Below, piece after piece: positions 7,769-15,326 of a stretch of 64,000 nucleotides of DNA (within the stretch, counting starts at the first letter, position 1; each line of letters begins with the position of its first letter). A program made the position numbers and the translations under genes. The notes beneath the pieces are model-generated. The model searched no databases. It saw nothing but the letters and a program-made list of their open reading frames with translations, and was not told the DNA's origin. The DNA comes from an uncultured Clostridia bacterium (GTDB taxonomy: Bacteria; Bacillota; Clostridia; Christensenellales; Aristaeellaceae). The stretch is taken from positions 85,787 through 149,786 of the forward strand of contig CAMJPQ010000002.1 in NCBI GenBank assembly GCA_946407745.1, read 5' to 3'.

Positions 7769-7856
7769 CGATGCCATCATTTAAGGGAAGAAAGCAAGCC
7801 GGCCAATCGTCTGAATATATGAAGATATCAGGCCGCCTCAGAGGAGGAATGTGTCC

Positions 7857-9551
7857 ATGAAGAAGAGCGCTGCTGTTATACTGCGTACTGCGGTCACACT
7901 GGTATTTGCTTTGACCGCCCTGCTGCCGCTGCTGCCGGTATGCTCGTTTGGCGAGGATGAGTGGGAAGACGCTGCCGACTGGCGCGCAGACTGGGAAGAG
8001 ATGGGCCTCTTTGAATACGCCGATCTGCAGGGGGACACACTGGTAATCCTGGAAGGTGTGGAATGCCTGGGTATGGTCGAAGACAGCGAGTGGGCCTTTG
8101 AGGGCCAGCCGTATAAGGCAGGCGAGTGGCAGGATGGGCCAAGGTTTGACAGTTCTTTTGACAGAAAAGGCTTCAGAAGAGTCTCGCTTCCGTCAACGCT
8201 TCGCTGCATTGGCGGGGAATCCTTCATCGGCTACGATTTTGAGTCATTCACCCTGCCTGCTTCGCTGGAGCTGATCGCTGAAGATGCTTTTGCCTACTGC
8301 TGCTTTGATACACTGCGCATCGAATCCACGCTGCCGATCGAAGTGATCCTGAACAGCGTATACGAATGCTATGTGAAAGCCTACGAGGTGCCTGAGGATC
8401 ATCCACTGTACAAAAGTGTGGACGGCGTGCTTTTTTCAAAAGACGGGAAGACGCTGCTCTCCTACCCAGACAGCCGCCGTGATACCCACTATGACGTGCC
8501 GCGTGGTGTAGAACGCATCAGAGGCATCCACAATGAATACCTGCAGACCGTCTCCCTTCCCATCGGGCTGAAGTCCATCGATGACTACGGCTTTTCCGGC
8601 TGTACCCGGCTGCAGGCCATCGCGGTGCCACTTACAGTGCAGGGAATTGGAAAGGAGCCCTTTTTCGGCTGTGTTTCGCTGGAACTGGTTTCGCTGCCGG
8701 AGGGTTTGTCGGCAGGCAAGGATACAGACGGAGTATGGGCGGAGTACTATCCGGATGACAACCTTTATCGCGGTGACAACGGTGACACGCTGGCCGGAGT
8801 AAAAAGTACAGGCAGCATCGACGCGCCGGGGAGACTCTTCAGTCCCACTGCGAAGGAATCCTATGTTTACAGTAATGATGTTTTTGTAAAGCAAAGCCTG
8901 GTTACAGTCTACGATACTGCGGACGCCCCGAATGCTTACCGATGGTACCGTCAAGGAAAGACTGTGTACATGGGCGCATATGAAAACGGCCGCGTGGCAC
9001 TTTACGAGCCGCTGGGAGGTACATATGTGGATGCCGAGGGCCACGGCAGCATCATCGGATGGGTTCCGATCACAGACCTTCAGTACCTGTCTCCTGAAAA
9101 CCTGTTCACCTATGCTGCAGTAAGGCCCCACAGTGTCATGAAGGTCTGGTGGAATCACCTGCCGGATTACGAATGGTGGACGCCCTGGGAGACAGTCATC
9201 CCCATTGAAGAACGTGACTTTAAGCCCACGTTGTTCGGTGAGTTTGTCCGCTTTGACGACCCTTTGACACACGCCGTGTTTGGGTGCGCCATTCAGGATG
9301 CGGAGCTGACCCGCATACCTGACGGAACGGATGCTGTGTATGGCATCGTCTACAACGACAGTTTTCTGGAAGACATTCCCCTGCAGTCAGCACCGGAAAG
9401 CAGCACTGTGAAGATGATGATCGGCGGTACTCAGGTACAGATTTTGGACGAGAAAGGAAATTGGACTCAGGTCACAGACGGCACAGATACCGGCTGGGTG
9501 AAAAAGAGCTGTCTCATGATCGTTCCCGAAGAACAGGAGGTAAACAAGTGA
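7857..9551 (+). CDS. Exported BspA-type leucine-rich repeat protein with C-terminal SH3-like domain
   Basis: A 564-aa exported protein. Residues 1-28 form a signal peptide. About residues 90-280 hold LRR_5 (BspA-type) repeats, such as VSLPSTLRCIGGESF and VSLPIGLKSIDDYGFSGC. The rest contains beta-rich, SH3-like segments ending in QILDEKGNWTQVTDGTDTGWV, the bacterial SH3 pattern. Such proteins usually bind glycans, peptidoglycan or host proteins at the surface. No sortase or lipobox motif is visible. ATG 7857 is chosen over GTG 7851 because GAGGAGG is 9 nt upstream. The stop overlaps the ATG of the next gene by one base, showing tight coupling in a three-gene exported-protein operon. Confidence 0.8.
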   Translation: MKKSAAVILRTAVTLVFALTALLPLLPVCSFGEDEWEDAADWRADWEEMGLFEYADLQGDTLVILEGVECLGMVEDSEWAFEGQPYKAGEWQDGPRFDSSFDRKGFRRVSLPSTLRCIGGESFIGYDFESFTLPASLELIAEDAFAYCCFDTLRIESTLPIEVILNSVYECYVKAYEVPEDHPLYKSVDGVLFSKDGKTLLSYPDSRRDTHYDVPRGVERIRGIHNEYLQTVSLPIGLKSIDDYGFSGCTRLQAIAVPLTVQGIGKEPFFGCVSLELVSLPEGLSAGKDTDGVWAEYYPDDNLYRGDNGDTLAGVKSTGSIDAPGRLFSPTAKESYVYSNDVFVKQSLVTVYDTADAPNAYRWYRQGKTVYMGAYENGRVALYEPLGGTYVDAEGHGSIIGWVPITDLQYLSPENLFTYAAVRPHSVMKVWWNHLPDYEWWTPWETVIPIEERDFKPTLFGEFVRFDDPLTHAVFGCAIQDAELTRIPDGTDAVYGIVYNDSFLEDIPLQSAPESSTVKMMIGGTQVQILDEKGNWTQVTDGTDTGWVKKSCLMIVPEEQEVNK

Positions 9552-10603
9552 TGAAAAAGCTGCTTTGTGTTTTACTGTTTCTCCAGATGCTTGTGGTGAC
9601 CGCAGTGGCTGAAGAGACTACGGAAGCCGAGGCTTCCACAGGCTCCTGGAGCCAGATCAATCAGGCCGTGGGTAAAAGTGAGAACTGGCAGCAGCTTGAG
9701 ACGGACGGCCGCTTTCATCTTGGGGAAAAGCGGACGCTTGAGGGCTATGACAAACTGTACATCATGGACTGGGGGACATGGCCCAGCATGGATGGCAGCA
9801 CAGTCTGCGTGCCCATAGCCATGGAGCTGGCCCGCCAGTGGCTGGGGTTGGATGAAGGTGACCTGAATGGCTTTGTGAACTTCTCCACCACCCCCTATGC
9901 TTACGACAGACTGACTCAGGGAAGGCCCAATCCCCTGGTGACGATCAAGAGTCAGGGGGTGATGATGGATGACGCCCATCCCATTGATCTAGTGCTGGCC
10001 ACCTATCCCAACGCCGATGAACGACGGGCTGCGGAAGACGCCGGCCTGGAGCTGGTTTATGTGCCTTTCTGCTATGATGCCTTTGTGTTCATGGTCAATG
10101 CTGCGAATCCGGTAGACAGCCTGACGGTTTCTCAGATTCAGGGAATCTATACAGGGCAGTATGAAACCTGGAAAAGCCTCGGCGGCACCAGCCAGCAAAT
10201 TTTCGCCTACCAGCGCCCGCACGGCAGCGGCAGCCAGACCGCCATGGAAGAGCTGGTGATGGACGGACTGGAAATAGAGAATGTGCCGGAGAACTATGTG
10301 TCAGACGGCATGAGCGAAGCCGTGCAGCAGATCGGCAACTACGACAACGGTCCGGGAGCCATTGGTTACAGCTACCTTTACTATGTCAGCACCCTGGTGG
10401 AAAGTAGCGGCATTAAAGTGCTGTCTGTTGACGGCGTTGCGCCTTCTCCGGAAAACCTTCAGTCCGGGGCATATCCCTTCACTGTGAACTATTACGCGGT
10501 TTACCGAAGGGGTGACACCAACACGGAAGCCTTCGTGAACTGGCTGGTCAGCGCGGAGGGACAGCGGGCAGTTCAGCAGGCTGGGTACATTCCGCTGCAC
10601 TGA
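9551..10603 (+). CDS. PstS-like periplasmic-binding-fold protein, exported
   Basis: A 350-aa protein with signal peptide MKKLLCVLLFLQMLVVTAVA and a PBP-like fold of the phosphate-binding group: DGSTVCVPIAMEL matches the GSTS-type ligand loop, and the central region (LTVSQIQGIYTGQYETWKSLGG) and the end (FVNWLVSAEGQRAVQQAGYIPL) are typical of PstS-like proteins. No pstCAB genes are nearby, and the partners are LRR and SH3 proteins, so an uptake role is unsure; it may sense or bind a ligand at the wall. TGATG overlap with the upstream stop and AGGAGGT support the start at 9551. Confidence 0.8.
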   Translation: MKKLLCVLLFLQMLVVTAVAEETTEAEASTGSWSQINQAVGKSENWQQLETDGRFHLGEKRTLEGYDKLYIMDWGTWPSMDGSTVCVPIAMELARQWLGLDEGDLNGFVNFSTTPYAYDRLTQGRPNPLVTIKSQGVMMDDAHPIDLVLATYPNADERRAAEDAGLELVYVPFCYDAFVFMVNAANPVDSLTVSQIQGIYTGQYETWKSLGGTSQQIFAYQRPHGSGSQTAMEELVMDGLEIENVPENYVSDGMSEAVQQIGNYDNGPGAIGYSYLYYVSTLVESSGIKVLSVDGVAPSPENLQSGAYPFTVNYYAVYRRGDTNTEAFVNWLVSAEGQRAVQQAGYIPLH

Positions 10604-10653
10604 CTTCGTTTCCTCACTGACAATATCGTTTCTGCAAAGGAGAACGCTGTATT

Positions 10654-12213
10654 TTGAAGAAGACAGCTCTGTTCAACGTGGCGCTCCTGATGTGTCTCTT
10701 CGTTTCCTCGTTTTCATACGCCATGGACGGATCGCAGCTCAGCGCTGCGCTGCTTCAGGCAGGTATTAGTCAGCCGTTGCAGCTTTCGCAGTGGGGCGAC
10801 ACGGCGGCCTGCTTCGCCGAGACGAACGGCGTCAAAAGGCTGATCCTTCTGGAGCGGCATGACGGCGCGTGGCAGATTGCCATCGACAATTCCAAGGCGC
10901 TGTTTCAGGACAGGGATTGGCCGCAGCTCCTGCTGGACAGCGACAACGCCGTGTTCTGGACCTATATCCTGTCGGATACGGAGATGGTGCGCTACCACAG
11001 CAGCCGGAACGCTGACGGAATCTGGGATCGGGTGGAGCAATACCATTCCGACAGCGGCTTCGGTGAATACACCCATGTCTGGAACACGTCCTGGGACGGT
11101 TTGAACGGCGGAGAGATCACCCGCACTTTTTCCATGTCGGATGAAAACGACAATGACCTTGGCGAACATGTCATGCAGATTCTTCCGGCGTCTTGGCTGG
11201 CGGACTGCATCCGGCTGGCAGACTTCGACGTTTCGCGCTTTCCAACCATGCTCATCGCGTCAAACGATTCTTTTGCCTTCGAGAACAAGCGCTTTTTCCG
11301 GGAAGCCGCTGCAGCCCTCATGCCGGAATACACCTTCGTCAAGGGCATGCTGAAAAACGGCGCCATGCATTTCCTGATGGAGAAGCCGGACGGCAGCCGG
11401 GTGTATGTGATCTGTGAGTACATGAGCCACCAGGCTGTTAACCTGATTGAGAGCAGTCCGCTGCCCGCCGACACCATACTGGGATACCAAAACTTCACCG
11501 ACAGCCTGTGGATCGACGGGCGCTGTGTGACGATTCAACTGTTATTTGACGGCACTGCGGGAATCGAATACATCTATGACGACGCTGCATACTCCGAAGA
11601 ATCGGGAGGCTTCCTGTTCTTCGGACACCGGACGGTCTGGGATGGTTCAGAGGTGCATGCACAGACCATTCTCTACGGAGACCATCCATGGGACGACATC
11701 ACGCAGATCAACTGGAACACCCTGCCACACAATCTGTCGGAAGCCTCCGCGCAGATGGATTCCGGCAATTATGCCATGGTGGTGAATCCGAATCCAGCCG
11801 ACCGCCTGCACTTGCGGGAGCGGGCAGACAAGCGCAGCCGCTCCCAGGGCAAGTATTACACCGGAACGGCAGTTGGTGTCATGGCTCAAGACGGCGACTG
11901 GATGCAGGTGACATTCGGCGATTGGAACAGCTGGGTTCATGGATACATGATGAAGCGCTACCTGACTTTTGGGCAATCCGGCAGCGCGCTGCAGCTTGAT
12001 CTGTCTGCCATGCCGCAGCTCTCCCCGGCTCACCCCATCCTGAAGGTTTACCGGCAGCCGCAGGCAGGATCCTACGTCACCCATTGGCAGGAGAGCCACG
12101 AATCGATGCGGGTGATCGGGATCATCGGTGACGAATGGTACCATGTCTGGTTCCCGGCCACCGGGGAGTATGGGTTTGTGCGGTGGAGTGATCTGTCGCC
12201 CGGAAACGGATGA
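10654..12213 (+). CDS. Exported protein with two C-terminal SH3-like domains
   Basis: A 519-aa exported protein starting at TTG 10654, with AAAGGAGAA about 10 nt upstream and no ATG in frame close by. Residues 1-22 are a signal peptide. The first 350 residues match no family I know. A bacterial SH3 domain covers about 375-445 (LHLRERADKRSRSQGKYYTGTA), and a second similar unit about 455-517 (VYRQPQAGSYVTHW through YGFVRWSDL). SH3b domains usually bind cell-wall peptides. It is last in the operon with the LRR and PstS-like genes. Function unknown. Confidence 0.72.
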   Translation: MKKTALFNVALLMCLFVSSFSYAMDGSQLSAALLQAGISQPLQLSQWGDTAACFAETNGVKRLILLERHDGAWQIAIDNSKALFQDRDWPQLLLDSDNAVFWTYILSDTEMVRYHSSRNADGIWDRVEQYHSDSGFGEYTHVWNTSWDGLNGGEITRTFSMSDENDNDLGEHVMQILPASWLADCIRLADFDVSRFPTMLIASNDSFAFENKRFFREAAAALMPEYTFVKGMLKNGAMHFLMEKPDGSRVYVICEYMSHQAVNLIESSPLPADTILGYQNFTDSLWIDGRCVTIQLLFDGTAGIEYIYDDAAYSEESGGFLFFGHRTVWDGSEVHAQTILYGDHPWDDITQINWNTLPHNLSEASAQMDSGNYAMVVNPNPADRLHLRERADKRSRSQGKYYTGTAVGVMAQDGDWMQVTFGDWNSWVHGYMMKRYLTFGQSGSALQLDLSAMPQLSPAHPILKVYRQPQAGSYVTHWQESHESMRVIGIIGDEWYHVWFPATGEYGFVRWSDLSPGNG

Positions 12214-12293: not shown

Positions 12294-14699
12294 CTATCCA
12301 TTTCCTCCCAGTTCCAGCTGGGCCAATATCACATCTCCATCCTCTGTGATATAAGCAGAGGCATGCTGGTTATAGCAGCCATAAGTATCGTCCCAGACAA
12401 AGAAGAAGACTCCCCAGGTGGGTTCCTCCACTTGGTACAGCCCGTCCACCGTTCCGTTGACAGCCAGCAAAGCGTTGATTTTGAAATCATTGATATATTC
12501 CGGGCCGACTTCCGTGTCACCGACTTCATGCAATGCCTTAACGGCAATTTCAACAGCCTGTTCCCTTGTGATTTTTCCTTCCTGCGGAAAGGTGCAGTAA
12601 TACGGTTTTTCTTCCTTCAGTTGATCCGCATTGTGCAGAGCCATGATGCTGGAGATGACCTGGCATTCGTAAGGCGCAAACATGAAATCACCGTATTGGA
12701 AATACCATTCCTGCTCCTTCTGTTCGTAGTTTTCAGCATTGACACCAAACTCGTCCATGGCTTTTTCCAGCTTGTCCCAGAATTCCGTTGGGGCGAAGTC
12801 CATGCCCCACATCCATGGCTTTCCATCAGGCTGCGGCTCCGGTGTAGCAATTGGCTCGCTGAAAGAGACATCCCGATTGCGCAAGCCGGGAATGCCGTCA
12901 AAGCATTCCAGCTGGAAAACCTCGCCAAGCATGCTTTCCAGCCAAACAGAGCCGACTTTCACACCGTCAGGCCGATACAGATTCACCTGCCAGGCGTTAT
13001 GGCCTTCATACATGTAATCAAACCAGAAGGAAAAGGCTCCTTTTAATGTGCTCACATCCAGACCCGGCAAGCCTTCCTTATACTCCTCTTTGAAAGCGTC
13101 CTTCGCAATACGCAGCGCTTCTTCTTCGGAAACATCGTCAGCTGATGGAAGGCCCGGAAAATCAATGATATCCCATTCCGGTTCATCACCCAATTGTGTC
13201 AGGAACTCAATAGCCTGTGCCTCCAGCGGCCAGAAGCAAGGATCATATCCGTAATGTGATACCCAGCTCTCGTAGAGAGCTTCTTCGGCCCCTGCGCTGT
13301 TATATCCGACCGCATTCAGCTTTTCCCAGTACCATTCAGGCGCAAGCTCTGTATCACCCCAGAATGCGGGAAGTCGCCAGGCGGGCAACGTTTCAGCTTT
13401 ACTCTGCGTTTTGCCTGAGCTCCGAGCAGGCTTTTCTTTTTGCCAATATTCCTCCGTCACATACTGACGCCATCCACGATAAGCATCGGCTTTGCTTGTG
13501 TCGGTGCACAATATCTCACCGGTAAGCGCATCAAGCTGAGCAAACACGTATCCACCGCCCTGCAGCCGCAGGGAGACCTTCCATACAGGTTTTCCATCCG
13601 CACTCTCCATGCACACAGCAACTGCGGAATTACTGTACAATGCTTCAAAGTCCAGCTTGCCGCAGGCATCTCTGGCCTTTTCAACAGCTGCCTCCTTGGA
13701 CAGCATGGTATCATTCGGTATCAGGTAAGTCATCTCAAGAATTGGGTATTCTTCGTTCAGAAAATGCTCCGGTCCGACCAGGGTCTGCCGGTGTATCATC
13801 GCTTCCTGGTATTTCAGCAGTATCTCACTGTTCCAGTTGATATAGCCATACTGATCACCATACACACGGATGAACCGATCCATCATGAATTGGCCATGTG
13901 CCTCCCAGCTTGAGCCCATAATGCCATCTACGCTGTATTCATTCTTGATGTGTCCTGCGGTGTCCAAAGTCAGATTGTAATCTGTGCCATACAGATCCCG
14001 GGCTTCGTATGAAAGACTCCATTGGCGTGAAGTCATTCCCTCACCCAGTCTGCTTTCCCGGTAAGTCAGATACCGCTGATACTTCTCCGTATCATCCAGG
14101 TTTACATCGGGGTCATACTTTTGATGGATGAAATCCTTTGCTATCGTCAGAATCTGATCCTGGGTGTATTCATCACCTTCCGGAAGTACGTTGCAAATCA
14201 CATCGTCATCCAGGCCGCAGGCCTCCATCATTTCTTCATACCAGTGCTGCACCTCAATCGGCCATGCATCCGGATAGAAGCCATACTCTGTTTTTACAAA
14301 ACGGCGCATCAGTTCTTCCTTGAAATATCCCTTATCCTCCAGATGCGTGAGAGTGTACATGTCCTCTTCACTCAGAATCAGATTGTTTTCTGAAGCGATG
14401 CGAAGGATTTCATCGATCTCTTCCTGAGTAAAAAGATCAGAATTCGTTTCTGCGGCTTTGGGAGCCATAATTCTCTCAACAAAATCTTTTCCGCCAAGCA
14501 TGGCTACTGCCAGCGCAGTCGCAGTGATCAGCAGCAGTACGATGGTCAGCACAAGGCTGTAACTCAGCTTTCTTTTCACTCTATATCCTCCTGTAGCATT
14601 TTCATAATAATGAACGCGCTGGCGGGAGGTCGTGCGTAGTCCGGAAAGCTCCGCATTCAGCGAATGCCGGATCCTTTCCTCTATAGTTTTATTCCTCAT
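12294..14699 (-). CDS. Large anti-sigma-like membrane protein with repeated PepSY-like modules
   Basis: 801 aa from ATG 14699, which has GGGAGGTG upstream and overlaps the sigma-factor stop by 11 nt. Residues about 1-38 are basic and cytoplasmic, one membrane helix follows (SLVLTIVLLLITATALAVAML), and the remaining roughly 730 residues are outside. The outer part repeats a module: an APEWYWEKL / APTEFWDKL element, a YG...WPLEAQ element, then EEALRIAKDAF or REQAVEIAVKAL followed by beta strands, as in PepSY domains. I count about four PepSY-like copies. Coupling to an ECF sigma gene and the topology suggest an anti-sigma factor or envelope sensor. The function is inferred and the size is far above usual anti-sigma factors. 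Confidence 0.7.
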   Translation of the reverse strand: MRNKTIEERIRHSLNAELSGLRTTSRQRVHYYENATGGYRVKRKLSYSLVLTIVLLLITATALAVAMLGGKDFVERIMAPKAAETNSDLFTQEEIDEILRIASENNLILSEEDMYTLTHLEDKGYFKEELMRRFVKTEYGFYPDAWPIEVQHWYEEMMEACGLDDDVICNVLPEGDEYTQDQILTIAKDFIHQKYDPDVNLDDTEKYQRYLTYRESRLGEGMTSRQWSLSYEARDLYGTDYNLTLDTAGHIKNEYSVDGIMGSSWEAHGQFMMDRFIRVYGDQYGYINWNSEILLKYQEAMIHRQTLVGPEHFLNEEYPILEMTYLIPNDTMLSKEAAVEKARDACGKLDFEALYSNSAVAVCMESADGKPVWKVSLRLQGGGYVFAQLDALTGEILCTDTSKADAYRGWRQYVTEEYWQKEKPARSSGKTQSKAETLPAWRLPAFWGDTELAPEWYWEKLNAVGYNSAGAEEALYESWVSHYGYDPCFWPLEAQAIEFLTQLGDEPEWDIIDFPGLPSADDVSEEEALRIAKDAFKEEYKEGLPGLDVSTLKGAFSFWFDYMYEGHNAWQVNLYRPDGVKVGSVWLESMLGEVFQLECFDGIPGLRNRDVSFSEPIATPEPQPDGKPWMWGMDFAPTEFWDKLEKAMDEFGVNAENYEQKEQEWYFQYGDFMFAPYECQVISSIMALHNADQLKEEKPYYCTFPQEGKITREQAVEIAVKALHEVGDTEVGPEYINDFKINALLAVNGTVDGLYQVEEPTWGVFFFVWDDTYGCYNQHASAYITEDGDVILAQLELGGNG

Positions 14700-15216
14700 A
14701 TGCCGCACCTCCCTCAAGCGAGACTTTCAGGAGCTCTTCCGCTTTTTTCAGTCTGCGCTGTACGGTCGATTGGGATGTGCCAAGTGCCCTGGCAGTTTCC
14801 TGCATCGTCAGCCCCTGAAAGTAGTAGAGAAGAAGGACTTGCTTATATCTGTCCGGCAGGTCCATGATAATCAGAGTGAGGGTGTGATCCTCCGGCTCTA
14901 CCGCCACAAGCTGCGGCGGCAATTCATCCAATGCCCGCTTCCGGTCCATATGCCGAAACCATGCAGAGCGCCTGTAGTCCTTGCAGGTGTTAATCGCTAT
15001 GCGCAGAAGCCATGCCTTCTCATTGGTATAGTCCTGTTGATCATAATCACTCATGTGCTTCCAGGCTTTGATCCACGTGTCCTGCATTGCGTCTTCCGCC
15101 TGTCCAAGATCGGACAGATAGAGAAAGCAAGTGCGAAGGATCGAATCAGAGTATTCTTCGATCCATTCCGCGAGTCTCTGCTCGCGATCCATGCCGGATA
15201 CCTCAGCATGTTCCAC
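14689..15216 (-). CDS. ECF-type RNA polymerase sigma factor
   Basis: A 175-aa sigma-70-family protein. Region 2 is visible in LSDLGQAEDAMQDTWIKAW and LLRIAINTCKDYRR, and region 4 in LPDRYKQVLLLYYFQGLTMQETARALGTSQSTVQRRLKKA. It should direct RNA polymerase to envelope-stress-type promoters and is probably held by the membrane protein encoded just downstream. The start is GTG 15216, preceded by a 12-nt sequence complementary to the end of 16S rRNA. No clear ECF-type autoregulatory promoter could be assigned upstream. Confidence 0.9.
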   Translation of the reverse strand: MEHAEVSGMDREQRLAEWIEEYSDSILRTCFLYLSDLGQAEDAMQDTWIKAWKHMSDYDQQDYTNEKAWLLRIAINTCKDYRRSAWFRHMDRKRALDELPPQLVAVEPEDHTLTLIIMDLPDRYKQVLLLYYFQGLTMQETARALGTSQSTVQRRLKKAEELLKVSLEGGAAYEE

Positions 15217-15220
15217 CGTC

Positions 15221-15232
15221 GATCACCTCCTT
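15221..15232 (-). promoter_or_regulatory. Extended Shine-Dalgarno of the ECF sigma gene
   Basis: AAGGAGGTGATC on the minus strand is complementary to the whole anti-Shine-Dalgarno tail of bacterial 16S rRNA. It lies a few bases before GTG 15216 and decides that start over ATG at codon 9. Confidence 0.75.
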
Positions 15233-15326
15233 CACCTATACAGACGAGAGAGAAGTTGGTTTTCTCCCACCTGCAATCATTTTCGTATTTTATTGGGGAG
15301 ACTGCTGTATTGCCGAACGCGATGAA

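Follow-up and report, generated by a model that had tools for sequence, protein, structure and literature searches.

The gene pair and its promoter

The window, that is the whole stretch of 64,000 nucleotides that was analysed, comes from an uncultured bacterium of the Clostridia and carries on its reverse strand a gene for an ECF sigma factor, followed by a gene for a large single-pass membrane protein that is probably its anti-sigma factor (Table 1). The product of the first gene matches the Pfam domains Sigma70_r2 (E=1.2e-15) and Sigma70_r4_2 (E=2.5e-13), and with regions 2 and 4, no region 3 and a length of 175 aa (below ~200 aa) it has the make-up of an ECF sigma factor. Its GTG start is supported by homologues that begin MEHAEV with an ATG. 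The start of the anti-sigma ORF and the stop of the sigma ORF overlap by 11 bp. The coordinates and the length of 801 aa are as the initial annotation gave them, which also noted a gene overlap.

The promoter pattern GARAAAAN{12,14}CGTCTNTA has a single occurrence in the 3.77-Mb genome, and its reversed control has none. This fits autoregulation, in which the sigma factor would drive its own operon. On the other side of the pair, three adjacent genes for proteins of secreted type (7851-12213, + strand) converge on the anti-sigma gene and appear by eye to encode a leucine-rich-repeat/SH3-like, a phosphate-binding-like and an SH3-like protein; the last of these genes also adjoins a related pair, L054, where it lies on the opposite side of the sigma gene.

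Table 1. Features of the sigma factor and anti-sigma factor locus, in coordinates of the window
Feature	Coordinates	Strand	Basis or remark
ECF sigma factor gene, 175 aa, GTG start	14689..15216	(-)	Pfam; 72-81% identical orthologues (rumen/gut Clostridia MAGs)
Single-pass membrane anti-sigma factor gene, 801 aa, ATG start at 14699	12294..14699	(-)	
ECF-type promoter GAGAAAA-N13-CGTCTGTA	15239..15266	(-)	Kept 5' of related sigma genes; putative autoregulation
Ribosome-binding site GGAGG	15226..15230	(-)	Sequence; conserved block GTGAAGGAGGTGATCG
Putative cytoplasmic sigma-binding part, residues 1-45	14565..14699	(-)	44-71% identical wherever the sigma is at least ~60% identical; nothing detectable against type-B
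Transmembrane helix, residues 46-66	14502..14564	(-)	Hydropathy; exchange junction inside, by codon-level identity crossover
AxA motif A62-L-A64, putative signal-peptidase-like site 1	14508..14516	(-)	Helix end
Juxtamembrane helix LGGKDFVERIMAPKAAE, possible cleavage guard	14448..14498	(-)	Predicted helix 70-84; RsiV (PMC6066255) as the model for a guard role
Outer module R1, residues 92-262, helical part plus helix and four strands	13914..14426	(-)	
Outer module R2, residues 263-418, certain PepSY at 333-397	13446..13913	(-)	PF03413 7.8e-6 alone
Outer module R3, residues 455-620, probable PepSY	12840..13337	(-)	E=0.036 alone; counted in whole-protein match
Outer module R4, residues 640-801	12297..12782	(-)	R3-R4 z=5.6; predicted helix and strands

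The cytoplasmic part and the membrane helix

The short basic cytoplasmic part of ~45 aa and the one hydrophobic helix after it (~47-66), both described in the initial annotation, are seen by hydropathy and in the predicted model. With a gene adjacent to that of the sigma factor, a cytoplasmic N-terminus, one membrane helix and an outer region, the protein has the layout of a transmembrane anti-sigma factor. In the window protein no anti-sigma domain of Pfam or NCBIfam was matched, and the Pfam searches gave no match to the RsgI N-terminal domain, to the YpeB-specific domains or, at E<=5, to DUF4179, the switch domain of RsiV. Subthreshold matches are found in relatives, to DUF4179 in L035 and L040 (E 0.025-0.036) and to the YpeB-specific models in one, L131. 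The cytoplasmic part forms two helices in a low-confidence predicted model, and at ~45 aa and with no Pfam match it falls outside the Class I anti-sigma domain, a four-helix domain of ~100 aa with a lower limit of 50 aa.

An AxA motif is present at the outer end of the helix in all 89 anti-sigma factors of the family described below, against 31 +/- 4 expected from shuffled segments, although as the 89 proteins are related these are not 89 independent cases. An AxA at the end of an alanine-rich helix is only suggestive of a signal-peptidase-like site. Three proteins of M50, the site-2 protease family, are encoded in the genome from which the window comes.

The outer region

The whole protein matches PepSY (PF03413) at 3e-12 and 47.1 bits (gathering cut-off 24) over three stretches; when the modules are searched singly against Pfam only R2 exceeds the cut-off, and R1 and R4 alone give no PepSY match. 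NCBIfam has no name for any outer region. Alignment of the modules, the limits of which were set by hand, against shuffled sequences links R1 to R3 (z=8.6) and R3 to R4, with no significant pairwise similarity between R2 and the others, and self-BLAST of the 801-aa protein returned no internal repeat. The repeats quoted in the initial annotation are real, with a likeness beyond chance for R1-R3 and R3-R4 and no significant pairwise one for R2.

A structure predicted from 12 sequences (pLDDT 63, pTM 0.43), with a fragment alignment that mis-paired the R2 of relatives with the R4 of the window left out, has R1, R2 and R4 as helices and then a helix with a four-strand sheet, and R3 without a reliable fold. 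The top PDB matches of this full model in Foldseek are PepSY proteins (4exr, 5boi YpeB and 3nqz), at weak E values of 2.6e-3 to 8e-3. An AF2 model of residues 70-262, which cover R1, is far more confident (pLDDT 93, pTM 0.84) but matches nothing in the PDB significantly; the best of the sensible matches is to a vibriolysin propeptide at E 0.67. The outcome that the initial annotation named as refuting, a predicted structure devoid of repeated PepSY folds, did not arise, though the PepSY matches of the full model are weak and R1 alone has no significant match. The description of the protein as multi-PepSY is fair but partly inferred: by profile R2 is certain and R3 probable, and R1 and R4 follow through repeat similarity and predicted secondary structure. 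The outer region is thus made up of one certain PepSY, one probable PepSY and two related modules that share their plan.

A family of sigma and anti-sigma pairs

Relatives were collected from 60 related genomes and from 308 genomes of the same family, 213 of which had a profile match, with further relatives reached through the sigma factor in named records, most of which are MAGs of Clostridia from rumen and gut. MAGs account for almost all of the relatives. Scanning of genome contigs with the 801-aa protein gave no relative, whilst alignment with the sigma factor did recover relatives. In the wider order full-profile matches are confined to the same family, and elsewhere it is mainly the PepSY part that is matched. 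The retained set is made up of 89 distinct anti-sigmas, each encoded after an ECF sigma and all with the N-terminus in common, with lengths of 272 to 970 aa. The anti-sigma starts at -4, -8 or -11 relative to the end of the sigma gene in 75 of the 89 pairs, an overlap that is not fully independent evidence of pairing as selection of the set required a nearby start and a similar N-terminus.

In the 3916 comparisons among these pairs, similarity of the sigma factors is followed closely by that of the cytoplasmic part (r=0.81) and far less by that of the outer region (r=0.26). The pairing of sigma and anti-sigma proposed for the window is supported by an overlapping arrangement found in 89 distinct related pairs and a cytoplasmic part that tracks the sigma factor. 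Two further pairs of the same family, with other outer regions, are found in the window's own genome (G000:C56 and G000:C176); the anti-sigma of one, L025, has 421 aa, and that of the other, L024, is incomplete and runs off the end of the examined locus.

An outer region from another lineage

The sigma factors of close relatives (L033-L037, L039, L040 and L061) are 76-81% identical to that of the window and their cytoplasmic parts 58-71% identical, yet their outer regions are mostly unrelated (local scores 41-75, little above chance) or distant; L033, with a sigma 81% identical, has an outer region that is not similar (score 42). The reverse is found in type-B pairs from another genus of the family (L121-L124, L131, L132, L134 and L135), where the outer region is 49-69% identical over ~720 aa, the sigma is only 28-33% identical and the cytoplasmic part has no detectable similarity. 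In L122 these values reach 69% over ~720 aa for the outer region and 29% for the sigma. One MAG from goat reticulum (G188, RGIG3226) has both arrangements: an orthologue of the sigma (82%) whose 440-aa anti-sigma is unrelated, and a type-B pair with the shared outer region. No type-B N-terminus was found in the window genome.

Codon by codon, identity to the orthologues drops from mostly 60-90% before residue 60 to about 20-55% after residue 70, and identity to type-B rises from 23-47% before residue 40 to mostly 60-80% after residue 70, with the crossover falling within the membrane helix. The promoter, sigma gene, cytoplasmic part of ~45 residues and transmembrane helix can thus be assigned by their similarities to one lineage, and the four-module outer region of ~735 residues to another, where it is carried on a different pair. 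The anti-sigma gene has a GC3 of 54%, the lowest of the 43 non-overlapping ORFs of at least 200 aa in the window (median 67.6), but as in-frame GC3 along the gene has no step at the junction, composition was not used as evidence for transfer.

A tree of outer regions nests the window within the type-B clade, where L122 is its sister (97/96) and deeper type-B branches fall outside; the most likely source of the outer region is therefore the type-B system of a relative. To judge by its neighbours, the locus is one belonging to the window's genus: in L054, of the same genus, the equivalents of rlmD (67% identical) and of the SH3-like gene (73% over 519 aa) adjoin a related sigma that has another outer region. 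That the outer region of the window's anti-sigma was swapped as a whole is, like the pairing, well supported from these comparisons. The initial annotation, parts of whose PepSY and pairing reading have found support above, had missed that the outer region appears to be an exchangeable cassette.

Two other origins for such a gene deserve consideration. The ancestor of type-A and type-B may already have had this outer region, which the window kept while other type-A pairs diverged or replaced theirs, with no recent exchange involved; many type-A and type-B members (L034, L042 and L046 among them) do have outer regions with a similarity of 25-30%, and this distant similarity argues that the modules of the two types share an origin. 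Retention of this kind nevertheless requires an outer region far more conserved than the sigma factor, is at odds with an identity of 63-69% to the nearest members of the clade in which the window is nested, where the sigmas are 28-33% identical, and leaves the positional relative of the same genus without this outer region, so that it is judged unlikely. An artefact of assembly or binning that joined two organisms within one gene is more improbable still. It might be suspected where all data are from MAG contigs and the junction is inside the gene, but since both flanks match those of L054 a chimera would need two false joins, the contig is 164 kb long, the best match to the outer region is 69% with no near-identical one in the sampled genomes, and similar exchanges are seen in several other genomes.

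Recurrence across the family

Exchange of the outer region is not confined to the window. Among the 89 pairs one example is sigma cluster 0, in which 48 members carry 15 clusters of outer region, and seven outer clusters occur in two or more sigma clusters; outer cluster 1 is made up of 10 type-B members and the window, and a reciprocal case (L011) has a type-B sigma with outer cluster 0. In the 3916 comparisons there are 27 pairs with distant sigmas (<40%) and close outer regions, and 152 with close sigmas (>=65%) and unrelated outer regions. This shows the predicted antenna and switch to be separate plug-in parts in this bacterial family.

On balance we lean towards a family-wide exchange of sensor cassettes, in which each chassis of promoter, sigma, cytoplasmic part and helix with the common cleavage switch would cycle through at least 15 outer families by recombination at the helix junction, perhaps helped by tandem arrays, and so rewire which stimulus reaches which regulon. 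Tandem arrays of two or three sigma and anti-sigma pairs do occur (L037, L061, L040 and L052), and in L052 two neighbouring pairs have identical sigmas (177 aa) and outer regions only 51% identical. It is plausible that such arrays serve as a substrate for recombination.

A proposed mechanism

We consider it likely that the transmembrane anti-sigma and the ECF sigma form a fixed switch with an exchangeable antenna. The nearest model is RsiV, in which lysozyme moves amphipathic helices that guard the site, signal peptidase then cuts there and RasP afterwards cuts in the membrane (PMC6066255). By analogy the window pair is probably activated in the same order: the sensor moves, cleavage follows at site 1 and then at site 2, and the sigma is released. 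The cytoplasmic part would hold the sigma at the membrane until the outer region changes, either because it binds a ligand (a protein, a peptide or a part of the cell wall) or because it loses a partner; this might move the juxtamembrane helix and expose the AxA at the helix end to signal peptidase, a site-2 protease would then cut within the helix, and the freed sigma could transcribe its own operon and regulon. A cleavage switch common to all members would explain why it survives the exchange of whole sensors, since any outer region that controls access to it would fit. Neither a ligand nor a co-encoded partner was found for the window pair, nor any regulon beyond its operon.

Other anti-sigma factors use other site-1 proteases, such as PrsW acting on RsiW. 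It is quite possible, if not the reading preferred here, that the window protein is an anti-sigma that works without signal peptidase, through another such site-1 protease or through a ligand that releases the sigma without proteolysis, and AxA is also common at alanine-rich helix ends. This sits less well with an AxA in the same place in all members whatever the outer region, and with the equivalent arrangement being a proven switch in RsiV (PMC6066255). There is a much smaller chance that the large protein is not an anti-sigma at all, and is a PepSY protein anchored in the membrane, perhaps a protease inhibitor, whose gene only shares a transcript with that of the sigma. PepSY takes its name from the propeptides of peptidases and from YpeB, and Pfam gave no match to an anti-sigma domain, yet the cytoplasmic part co-varies with the sigma and persists in all 15 outer clusters, which suits a role in sigma binding better than an outer function.

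Comparison with known systems

The proposed fixed switch with an exchangeable antenna has several partial counterparts. As in the RsiV and sigma-V system of Bacillus subtilis, a single-pass anti-sigma lies beside an ECF sigma and has an outer sensor, a short helix after the membrane helix and an AxA-like site at the helix end. RsiV however has a lysozyme-binding domain (DUF4179 and DUF3298), whereas the window protein has a PepSY array of ~735 aa with neither Pfam domain matched, and its cleavage site is putative. YpeB and other PepSY proteins (4exr, 5boi and the vibriolysin propeptide) have PepSY modules and are the best fold matches of the model, but unlike the window protein they are not anti-sigma factors.

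Modular anti-sigmas are already known. DUF4179 is common to RsiV and an otherwise unrelated anti-sigma, and the RsgI paralogues, which are the anti-sigmas of sigma-I in cellulolytic clostridia, combine one intracellular part and membrane helix with different outer sensors (PMC12203970, PMC4711584). The window family resembles RsgI in joining one core to varied outer sensing domains. It differs in being unrelated in sequence (no RsgI_N match), in having an ECF and not a sigma-I factor, and in that sensors differ between close relatives of the sigma while one sensor is found with distant sigmas.

The window family is the opposite of the conservation within groups seen by Wu et al. (2020), who found fused sensing domains to be strikingly conserved within an anti-sigma/ECF group, suggesting that similar cues are sensed (PMC7406223). 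Like their Class I groups the window has an anti-sigma beside the ECF sigma, and its sensing domains follow the sigma-binding part on the C-terminal side; unlike these groups, one sigma cluster carries 15 outer clusters, and the cytoplasmic part of ~45 aa is below the 50-aa limit of that survey (PMC7406223). A search of the literature outside subscription journals found no anti-sigma class with PepSY arrays and little on the swapping of sensors, which agrees with the view of the initial annotation that the architecture is not that of a described anti-sigma class.

If the proposed exchange is true, the stimulus in this family cannot be predicted from the sigma group, and natural chimeras show at which point an anti-sigma tolerates cutting and re-joining. 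The way in which a single common switch is worked by different outer domains then becomes directly testable, and the junction may be usable for building synthetic sensors.

Related sequences apart from intact pairs

The outer plan is also found in two proteins (L012, G001:C43:128728-130818, and L021, G010:C1:266236-267681) in which a signal peptide replaces the anti-sigma part; no sigma was detected near either, and they appear to be free secreted versions of the sensor. These secreted forms could be decoys, or could represent the soluble origin of the cassette. Elsewhere, a fragment 80% identical to residues 1-47 of the window sigma lies within a 505-aa frame (G202:C11:53293-53430), and is possibly a broken sigma copy or an artefact of the contig end.
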